A stretch of 35,916 bases of DNA from Natronomonas aquatica (lineage in GTDB: Archaea; Halobacteriota; Halobacteria; Halobacteriales; Haloarculaceae): contig NZ_JAHLKM010000024.1 of NCBI RefSeq assembly GCF_024449025.1, forward strand, positions 1-35,916. Direction: 5' to 3'. How positions within the stretch are numbered: the stretch's first letter is position 1; every line of letters begins with the position of its first letter. The position numbers and the translations under genes were made by a program. The notes below the pieces were generated by a model, which was not told the DNA's origin, searched no databases, and worked only from the letters and a program-made list of their open reading frames with translations. Of this stretch, positions 8,531-10,934 are shown piece after piece.

Positions 8531-9312
8531 TGAGTCCGTTTTCAGTCGACGGACGGACGGCCGTGATCACCGGCTCGAGCCAGGGGATCGGCGAAACGAC
8601 CGCAAAGCGGTTCGCCGCTGCCGGCGCAAACGTCGTCGTCACCTCCCGATCGCCGGAGCGAATCGAAGCGGTCGCCGAGGAAATAAACGACAGCGACCGT
8701 CCCGGCGAGGCTATCGCGATCGAGTGTGATGTCCGGGATCGGGCGGCCATCGAGGCGCTCCTCGAGGCGACCGCCGGGGAGTTCGGACGGATCGACTCGA
8801 TGATCAACAACGCCGGCGCGTCGTTCACCGCGGCGTTCGACGAGCTCTCGGAGAACGGCTGGAAGACGATCGTCGACATCAACCTCCACGGGACGTTCCA
8901 CTGTGCTCAGATCGCGGGCCGACATATGCAACAGCAGGAAGGTGGGGGAACGATCGTCAACGTCGCCTCCATCGCGGGAACGATGGGGTCGCGGTCGATG
9001 AGCCACTACGGGGCCGCCAAGGCGGCCGTGATCAACCTCACGAGGTCGCTATCGGCCGCCTACGCGGATCACGGGATCCGGGTCAACTGCGTCGCGCCCG
9101 GGCTCGTCGGGACGCCCGGCGTCGCCTCCCAGCTTGGGATCGATCCGGCCGACGTCGACCGCGAGGACGTCGACAAGGCGATGGGCCTGCCGGCAGAGAT
9201 CGCCGACGTCATCCAGTTCCTTGCGAGCGACGCCGCCTCCTACGTCGTCGGCGAAACGATAACCGCCCAGGGTGTTCCACCGCTCGAGGACACACAGCGG
9301 CCGAACACATGA
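8527..9312 (+). CDS. Short-chain dehydrogenase/reductase (SDR)
   Basis: A 261-residue NAD(P)-dependent oxidoreductase of the classical SDR type. The cofactor loop TGSSQGIG (residues about 15-22), the NNAG motif (96-99) and the catalytic triad Ser...Tyr-x3-Lys (in VASIAGTMGS and SHYGAAKAAV) are present, and GLVGTPGV marks the usual turn after the active site. R/S residues after the first strand (TSRSPERI) suggest NADP preference. Two tandem ATG codons make the exact first residue uncertain. The stop overlaps the start of the F420-dependent oxidoreductase gene as ATGA. Substrate unknown. Confidence 0.92.
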   Translation: MMSPFSVDGRTAVITGSSQGIGETTAKRFAAAGANVVVTSRSPERIEAVAEEINDSDRPGEAIAIECDVRDRAAIEALLEATAGEFGRIDSMINNAGASFTAAFDELSENGWKTIVDINLHGTFHCAQIAGRHMQQQEGGGTIVNVASIAGTMGSRSMSHYGAAKAAVINLTRSLSAAYADHGIRVNCVAPGLVGTPGVASQLGIDPADVDREDVDKAMGLPAEIADVIQFLASDAASYVVGETITAQGVPPLEDTQRPNT

Positions 9313-10310
9313 CTGAACGGGATCTCTTTCTACCGGTGGCAGCACAGCCGAGCGTCGAGACGCTCGTCGAGGGGGCACGGCTCGGCGAGGACCTCGGGTA
9401 CGACACCGCGTGGCTCCCCGAGACGTGGGGCCGGGACGCGGTCACGACGCTGACCTGCATCGCACGGGAGACCGACGAGATCGGTGTCGGCACCTCGATT
9501 ATGCCGGTTTACTCCCGGTCGCCGGCGCTCATCGGACAGACCGCGACGACGCTTCAGGAAGTCTCGGAGGGCCGGTTCCGGCTCGGACTCGGCCCCTCCG
9601 GCCCGCTCGTCATCGAGAACTGGCACGGCGTCGAGTTCGGGAACCCGCTGCGCCGGACCCGCGAAACCGTCGAGATCGTCAAACGCGTCCTCTCGGGCGA
9701 ACCGGTCGAATACGACGGGGAGATATTCGATCTCGAAGGGTTCAGGCTCCGGTGTGATCCCCCTGACCCGGTACCGGCCGTCGATACAGCCGGGATGGGG
9801 CCGAAGGCGGTCGAACTCGCGGGGCGTTTCGCCGACGGCTGGCATGCGCTTTTGTTGACCCGGGAAGGCCTCCGGGATCGGCTGGAAGATTTCGACCGCG
9901 GCACCGAACTCGGCGACCGGGACCGATCCGAACAGCGGGTCTCGCTGTCTCTGACCTGCTGTGTGCTTGAGGACGCCGAAGAGGCGAAACGGCTCGTCAG
10001 ACAGCACGTCGCCTTTTATGTCGGCGGGATGGGGTCCTACTACCGCGACAACCTCGCACGACAGGGACACGAGGCGGCTGCAAACGAGATCTACGACCGC
10101 TGGCAGGACGGCGACACCGACGGCGCGATGGCGGCGCTGTCGGACGACCTCCTCGAACGGCTCGCGGTCTGGGGAACGCCCGAGACTGCCCGTGAGCGAT
10201 TCGAACGGTTCACCGGCATCGACGGCGTGGCTGCGGTGTCGGTTTCGTTCCCGCGGGCGGCGGACATCGATCAGATCCGCTCGACGATGCGGGCGCTCGC
10301 CCCCGAATGA
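9309..10310 (+). CDS. LLM-class F420-dependent oxidoreductase (NP1902A-like)
   Basis: A 333-residue luciferase-like TIM-barrel flavin/F420 enzyme. It shows the family pattern: an N-terminal strand with LFLPVAAQPSVETLVEGARL, DTAWLPETWGRD, then IGVGTSIMPVYSRSPALIGQ and GRFRLGLGPSGP. The C-terminal half contains the insertion RVSLSLTCCVLEDAEEAKRL and a closing helix. Haloarchaea have a characteristic set of these enzymes, and the sequence resembles the group named after Natronomonas NP1902A; that subfamily name is from memory. Translational coupling to the SDR suggests both oxidoreductases act on related substrates, possibly successive steps of one carbonyl or alcohol conversion. This link is inferred. 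Confidence 0.88.
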   Translation: MTERDLFLPVAAQPSVETLVEGARLGEDLGYDTAWLPETWGRDAVTTLTCIARETDEIGVGTSIMPVYSRSPALIGQTATTLQEVSEGRFRLGLGPSGPLVIENWHGVEFGNPLRRTRETVEIVKRVLSGEPVEYDGEIFDLEGFRLRCDPPDPVPAVDTAGMGPKAVELAGRFADGWHALLLTREGLRDRLEDFDRGTELGDRDRSEQRVSLSLTCCVLEDAEEAKRLVRQHVAFYVGGMGSYYRDNLARQGHEAAANEIYDRWQDGDTDGAMAALSDDLLERLAVWGTPETARERFERFTGIDGVAAVSVSFPRAADIDQIRSTMRALAPE

Positions 10311-10390
10311 ACGGGTGGGCCCTCACCTCGCTATCGCTGTAACCGAGATCGACTCCGAGCACGCCGTTCTCCCGACGGGATCGCCCGACA

Positions 10391-10400
10391 ATTTATATAC
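10391..10400 (+). promoter_or_regulatory. Strong TATA box not followed by an ORF
   Basis: ATTTATATAC is a near-ideal archaeal TATA box in a GC-rich intergenic stretch. About 27 bases downstream, around 10421, transcription should start, but the first ATG (10423) meets TGA at its third codon. This points to a non-coding transcript. Confidence 0.65.
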
Positions 10401-10420
10401 GAACACGGGGCCAGCCCTCC

Positions 10421-10586
10421 TATGCGTTGAGCGATCGACGGCGGGTCGCCGAGGCGGGAGCAGAGCGGACCGATGAAGGAGGTGCCGGGTCGGCCGCTCG
10501 CTGTGACCCACGGCTCGCCGAACGAAAGCGGGTCACCTGTTCGCCAGTTCCCGGCCAGCCGCGACCGGCCGCAGCCTCAACGTTTT
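10421..10586 (+). ncRNA. Candidate structured non-coding RNA
   Basis: About 165 bases following a strong TATA box, with no protein-coding frame of its own. The ends pair: CGTTGAG at 10425-10431 is complementary to CTCAACG at 10576-10582, which is followed by TTTT at 10583-10586 as a termination signal. Inside, GTGACCC (10503-10509) pairs with GGGTCAC (10530-10536), enclosing a smaller CGG/CCG hairpin, and GGCC at 10553-10556 can pair with 10567-10570. The 3' end overlaps the last codons of the convergent zinc-ribbon gene. I looked for hallmarks of RNase P RNA, SRP RNA and C/D box RNAs and did not find them. It may be an H/ACA-like guide or a new sRNA. Confidence 0.45.
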
Positions 10587-10864
10587 CCGAGCGCCCGCCC
10601 GGCGTCCGTCGTCCCGTGGCGCACGAAGGAGAGATAGAAGCCCCGGCCGCAGCCGTCGGCGTCCGGATCGCGTGTCGTCTCGTCTTCACCGCACTGAAAC
10701 CGGACGCCGTCGATCCGTTCCCGCTCGTAGTCGTCATCGGCCGCAACGTACTCCCAGCCCTCGAGCGGGTACGGCGTAACGGACTTGTCGGCGAGATATC
10801 CCTCTCGCTCGAGTTCGACGACCGTCTCACAGTGCGGACAGTAGTACGTAACGGGAGTACTCAT
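10577..10864 (-). CDS. Small zinc-ribbon protein
   Basis: A 95-residue protein with an N-terminal CPHC (residues about 9-12) and a later Cys pair in FQCGEDETTRD...GCGRGFYLSF, consistent with a zinc ribbon whose second half has been expanded by an acidic loop. Haloarchaea encode many small zinc-finger proteins of unknown role; this could be one of them. The frame is open upstream, but ATG 10864 gives the natural MSTPVTYYCPHC start. It is divergent from the glutaredoxin gene across 100 bases. Its 3' end overlaps the candidate ncRNA on the other strand, so antisense interaction is possible. Confidence 0.72.
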   Translation of the reverse strand: MSTPVTYYCPHCETVVELEREGYLADKSVTPYPLEGWEYVAADDDYERERIDGVRFQCGEDETTRDPDADGCGRGFYLSFVRHGTTDAGRALGKR

Positions 10865-10934
10865 ACCGCTATTAGACGTCGCGGACGCTTGGCCGTGTCG
10901 GTGTCGGTAGTCCCGATCGGGGTTCCGGGCGTCG

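Follow-up and report, generated by a model that had tools for sequence, protein, structure and literature searches.

The stretch of DNA analysed here, which we call the window, comprises 35,916 nt of the Natronomonas aquatica genome (contig NZ_JAHLKM010000024.1). At the locus of interest, an F420-dependent oxidoreductase-like ORF (9309-10310) is followed by a candidate RNA gene (Table 1), by a convergent zinc-ribbon ORF ending at 10577 (10577-10866) and then by a glutaredoxin-like ORF, the three ORFs being named from a reading of their sequences. An earlier note on this DNA had claimed a near-ideal TATA box, and this holds: the box, TTTATATA, lies within ATTTATATAC (10391-10400), and with the downstream stretch CGAACACGGGGCCAG it constitutes a strong promoter of leaderless type. 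The mini-ORF that follows would sit at the 5' end of the transcript.

Table 1. Features of the candidate RNA gene in the window
Feature	Position	Strand	Basis or remark
TATA box TTTATATA	10392..10399	+	Start codon 30 nt downstream of its first base
Whole RNA gene, match of covariance model R1	10422..10547	+	55.3 bits, E 2.8e-8 for the genome
Putative leaderless mini-ORF ATG CGT TGA (start, one sense codon, stop)	10422..10430	+	Frame in 155/164 copies and in the blind-model control
Pseudoknot helix A, 5' strand CGGCGGGTCG	10439..10448	+	Partner 10511-10520; covariation
Conserved unpaired loop 1 motif CCGAGGCGGGAG	10449..10460	+	Almost unchanged across alignments A1 and A3
Hairpin inserted in loop 1, copy-specific	10461..10502	+	Only in some copies, e.g. 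syntenic L006, whose sequence differs
Pseudoknot helix B, 5' strand GTGACCC	10503..10509	+	Partner 10530-10536
Pseudoknot helix A, 3' strand CGGCTCGCCG	10511..10520	+	Partner 10439-10448
Pseudoknot helix B, 3' strand GGGTCAC	10530..10536	+	Partner 10503-10509
Conserved 3' tail CTGTTCGCCA	10537..10546	+	Position-wise composition over 164 copies

Over 164 copies of the gene, conservation ends sharply at CTGTTCGC[CT]A, which in the window copy falls at 10546, probably the 3' end of the functional RNA. Because conservation stops there and not at 10585, we take the gene to be ~125 nt long rather than the ~165 bases given earlier, and it ends ~30 nt short of the zinc-ribbon ORF. The TTTT at which the longer transcript was thought to stop is not enriched downstream of the copies (11 copies, versus 8.2 expected by shuffling). 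The 167-nt stretch of the interval proposed earlier folds better than its shuffles, to a moderate degree (z = -2.25; 4 of 200 shuffles equal it). The terminal stem proposed for it, CGTTGAG (10425-10431) with CTCAACG (10576-10582), does pair in the window sequence, but in the syntenic region of other genomes, where the earlier note had suggested looking for it, the stem is kept in none of three copies (L006, L170 and L007). Its 5' arm lies inside the mini-ORF and its 3' arm overlaps the final codons of the zinc-ribbon gene.

A blastn search with 10380-10600 against the same genome and its relatives returned eight places in the window's genome and matches in nearly every Natronomonas genome, spanning the promoter and the 5' part. 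Placed side by side, the copies follow one order: a TATA box, a start codon, a short spacer, a variable segment, CCGAGGCGGGAG, two further variable segments and CTGTTCGC, with the variable segments complementary in crossing order. Covariance model R1 found 17 copies in the N. aquatica genome and, in every one of the 20 Natronomonas genomes sampled, 6-17 copies; at wider ranks it matched 70 of 96 genomes in the family and 128 of 243 in the order, and matches occur in 37 of the 77 haloarchaeal genera sampled. The broader covariance model R2, run on 393 genomes of the phylum, gave no match outside the order. Copy number reaches 27 per genome at most, with 25-27 in Haloprofundus salinisoli, nine in Halobacterium sp. 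DL1 and one in Halomicrobium mukohataei. Since many haloarchaeal genera appear to be without the RNA, its role is probably not essential to haloarchaea. Two of the H. salinisoli copies (L319 and L321; G189:C1:2563390-2563477 and 2564423-2564517) lie ~1 kb apart on the same strand and have nearly identical pseudoknots, which would suggest a recent local duplication.

No family in Rfam 15 reaches its gathering threshold anywhere in the whole window, and among seven loci around copies the sole Rfam match was an unrelated tRNA. Permissive scans of three copies gave only chance-level miRNA or sRNA matches (E 1.3-2.9). The conserved boxes of RNase P, SRP and C/D RNAs had been reported as absent, and our searches likewise gave no match to these, nor a tRNA match for the RNA. 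A strict DNA pattern search matched a single genome record that carries a name, and none of the viral contigs. We found no description of the RNA family in the open literature, with supplements and most subscription journals lying outside the search; individual copies may well stand unnamed in published haloarchaeal sRNA lists. Comparison across genomes shows the window gene to be one copy of an undescribed, multi-copy family of predicted haloarchaeal RNAs. The earlier suggestion of a dedicated haloarchaeal sRNA gene, new and driven by a strong promoter of its own, is thus supported by comparative sequence, with the addition that the gene has many relatives.

In the surroundings of the copies, with neighbours called by a simple gene caller using acidic composition, the downstream gene is convergent in 107 of 160 cases (52 of 79 Natronomonas copies and 55 of 81 in other genera), and the RNA often reaches the stop codon of that gene. 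The constant position upstream of related same-strand genes by which a riboswitch is recognised is not seen, given these proportions. Many sites are common to three to six species with their neighbours unchanged. L006 and L170 each have the oxidoreductase, RNA and glutaredoxin genes side by side and also contain a relative of the zinc-ribbon gene; at L007 the oxidoreductase and the RNA are retained. The arrangement of the copies shows them to be free-standing predicted genes.

Pairing of the two crossing helices, A and B, was scored against shuffled controls. The 16 seed copies have 96.3% of cells paired (75.6% when shuffled) and 53 double-sided changes (12.9 when shuffled). For 100 copies from many genera, in an alignment fitted to helix A and not to helix B, 95.5% of cells are paired versus 67.0%, with 442 double-sided changes versus 128, and sliding the partners by 1-3 columns leaves at most 44.1% paired. 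Helix B by itself has 93.1% of cells paired in these 100 copies, with double-sided changes at 7 of 7 pairs. The copies are related by ancestry, and these statistics overstate the number of independent events. A mutual-information scan recovered helices A and B and nothing else. Helix B is the internal stem GTGACCC/GGGTCAC that had been noticed in the window copy, and it has proved to be a real helix of the family: the syntenic copy L006, which retains both helices with compensations, has GTGATCC/GGATCAC in its place. An H-type pseudoknot of two crossing helices with compensatory change is strongly supported by these alignments. A third helix beside helix B, pairing GCG of loop 1 with CGC of the tail, is possible, but it is without covariation and we do not adopt it.

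Apart from the 5' frame, the only near-invariant unpaired sequences are the loop 1 core GCGGGWGY and the tail CTGTTCGC. Loop 1 is 80% identical between orthologues and 72% between paralogues, and the tail 80% and 79%; loop 3 has 43% and 34%, and the spacer 51% between orthologues. The variable parts that are exposed carry nothing specific to a copy, an argument against antisense recognition and in favour of a partner common to the copies. Motifs of 9-10 bases from the tail, loop 1 and 5' end have no exact complement in 16S or 23S rRNA, and the single exact complement of the 7-base tail core, at position 1831 of L247 in the 23S locus, is near chance expectation. An inserted hairpin in loop 1, as in the window copy, occurs also in L006, L108, L115, L136, L137, L164 and L171; at one site (L115, L137 and L171) the insert is ~45 nt or more, with common stretches such as TGGGCACC and GATGCGA.

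The crossing helices invite comparison with known structured RNAs. The preQ1-I, SAM-II and fluoride riboswitches are H-type pseudoknots with two crossing helices and conserved unpaired residues. The haloarchaeal RNA is like them in both respects, but it has no common downstream gene set, no Rfam match and, as an element of its own, the conserved mini-ORF. Archaeal H/ACA and C/D guides are, similarly, small stable RNAs with conserved boxes, and RTGNNNTGA superficially resembles C/D boxes. An H/ACA RNA has a hairpin with an internal pocket and an ACA box near its 3' end; here covariation exists only for the two crossing helices, the conserved 3' end CTGTTCGC[CT]A holds no ACA and Rfam gives no match, so that the H/ACA-like guide considered in the earlier note is not supported. 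In box C/D RNAs the C box RUGAUGA and the D box CUGA form a kink-turn, whereas our consensus contains neither box and its 5' element, RTG-NNN-stop, admits TAA and TAG as well as TGA.

The earlier note had seen that the ATG in the window is closed early, and this is correct, with one codon and then TGA. It had read the closure as a sign of a non-coding RNA, and here we differ, since the frame is the most telling conserved feature of the family. An ATG or GTG start is present in 160 of the 164 copies. The second codon takes 24 forms, while the third is TGA in 141 copies, TAA in 11, TAG in seven, TGG in one, TGC in one and something else in three. The two variable positions of the stop change jointly, in stop-keeping combinations only (Fisher p = 5e-7, the copies being related). 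Among RTG copies, exactly one sense codon separates start and stop in 155 of the 164, two in two copies and none in one. At a purM-like syntenic site, different species have ATG CGA TAA, ATG CGC TGA, GTG ACG TGA and GTG ACC TAA; at syntenic sites the frame persists through changes of start, second codon and stop alike. Because a model that includes the frame could be biased toward it, we built model R3 without the first nine bases. It yielded 40 further copies, from Haloprofundus, Halobacterium and a third genus, with the frame at the expected place in 34 (background, 0 of 10,255). Read by eye, the other six comprise one frame slightly further upstream, ATG TAG, ATG TAA, one four-codon frame and two copies without a frame. 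Judging from these comparisons, a start codon and a near-immediate in-frame stop are conserved as such. With six of the 164 copies and two of the 40 blind-model copies having no recognisable ultra-short frame, it is not absolutely required.

The position of the frame is also regular. The distance from TATA box to start is 30 or 31 nt in 126 of the 141 copies with a scorable box, and a TATA box at -30/-31 is the geometry of leaderless haloarchaeal transcripts. The mini-ORF is followed by ~8 nt and then by the H-type pseudoknot. Three copies (L222, L193 and L204) are without a recognisable upstream TATA box; in L222, possibly a decaying copy, the usual spacing of the start codon is gone as well. 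Start-stop and two-codon minigenes and minimal upstream ORFs are known from bacteria and plants, where the frame is kept for its effect on the ribosome and not for a peptide. These are parts of leaders or phage minigenes, and their effect is on a downstream ORF or on tRNA drop-off. The haloarchaeal family similarly keeps a one- or two-codon frame, but as part of a free-standing pseudoknotted RNA, on what is predicted to be a leaderless transcript. On this comparative evidence, what defines the family is a pseudoknot joined to a conserved mini-ORF.

Ribosome-associated RNAs of similar size have been described in Haloferax volcanii, among them rancRNA_s194 (PMC6104027) and sRNA_61 with other ribosome-occupied non-coding sRNAs (PMC12482152). 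Some are reported to be abundant and to occupy ribosomes with no detectable protein product (PMC12482152, PMC6104027), so RNAs of this kind do exist in haloarchaea. They are like our family in being small intergenic haloarchaeal RNAs of ~100 nt; the passages compared mention no pseudoknot, mini-ORF or multi-copy family.

The frame suggests an RNA that acts by engaging ribosomes. The transcript would be made in quantity and would begin directly with the start codon, and a 70S ribosome would enter it as it would a leaderless mRNA. The stop codon would then halt the ribosome before the pseudoknot is unwound; the first pair of helix A, at about +17/+18, would lie where an initiating 70S ribosome is expected to have its mRNA entry edge. 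Held in this way, the RNA could affect translation in trans, whether as a regulator that docks ribosomes or as a decoy, with many copies for dosage. Action in trans is suggested because the conserved parts that are exposed do not differ between copies and none of the exposed parts is specific to one copy. A trans-acting RNA of this kind, with leaderless 70S loading, a stop-codon halt with the pseudoknot at the entry edge and action on translation, is the reading we favour, with a confidence that stays a little below even. That it represents a new class of trans-acting, 70S-capturing RNA, in which a leaderless start loads the ribosome, a stop follows after zero to three further codons and a pseudoknot stands at the entry site, is a larger claim and a rather doubtful one. 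If it were true, haloarchaea would possess a device made of RNA and controlled by gene dosage, with which ribosomes could be parked, sensed or regulated.

The same features could be explained by a structured sRNA or RNP scaffold in which a protein partner binds loop 1 and the tail and the mini-ORF has only a protective role: haloarchaeal transcripts that begin with RTG would be read as leaderless mRNA, and the stop would bar ribosomes from the pseudoknot. The near-invariant unpaired GCGGGWGY and CTGTTCGC do resemble a protein site, and the stop codon lies a little ahead of the helix. However, if ribosomes were a nuisance, loss of the RTG would be allowed, yet ATG or GTG is almost always kept, and the variants in frame length retain both start and stop. 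We regard a scaffold as unlikely, though worth serious consideration. A small mobile or selfish repeat with its own promoter would account for up to 27 dispersed copies per genome, for a number that varies between genera and for the close pair ~1 kb apart in Haloprofundus. It would not account for neighbours that are unchanged in up to six species of a genus or for compensatory change that preserves the fold across copies, and no transposase was noticed adjoining the copies examined; we consider this reading improbable.

Two further readings tie the RNA to its neighbours, and both fail because the copies are free-standing and mostly face a convergent gene. One is a cis-acting leader, a riboswitch or attenuator of the downstream gene. 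Some copies do lie 40-100 nt upstream of same-strand genes (EamA-type transporter, phosphomannomutase-like, ThiF-like), but the prevalent convergent gene often touches the RNA end, the downstream genes have no common function and some of the same-strand genes have a TATA box of their own, which makes a leader the least credible explanation, very improbable indeed. The other is an antisense or base-pairing sRNA with copy-specific targets, of which the zinc-ribbon gene would be one. The window copy is convergent with that gene at a distance of 30 nt, and convergence is common among copies. Weighing on the other side, the exposed variable segments (loop 3 and the spacer) are weakly conserved even in orthologues, the window RNA ends before the convergent ORF, and different copies have different neighbours; we give antisense pairing little credence. 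The particular antisense link to the zinc-ribbon gene raised in the earlier note finds no support, because the gene stops ~30 nt before the ORF and other copies face many unrelated genes.

A structured RNA with up to ~27 copies per genome, in about half of the sampled haloarchaeal genera and not in Rfam, is a large blank in well-studied archaea. The conserved one- or two-codon, presumably leaderless frame is an unusually clean sign of selection for ribosome entry on an RNA otherwise classed as non-coding, and it makes testable the question of what causes ribosome occupancy without a protein product in some haloarchaeal sRNAs. For annotators, the family model turns many unexplained intergenic regions into genes.

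Two minor observations concern sequences adjoining the RNA genes. In another haloarchaeal genus (g65), a relative of the zinc-ribbon gene (52-55% identity) adjoins an RNA copy too, but on its upstream side and in divergent orientation (L202 and L260, about 1501-1950); this may be coincidental or may reflect a link. The promoter stretch TTTATATACGAACACGNGGCCA of the RNA genes is common, at up to 94% identity, to apparent leaderless protein genes of the genus (L035, L037 and L049), pointing to a probable extended strong core promoter that runs from the TATA box to about -12.
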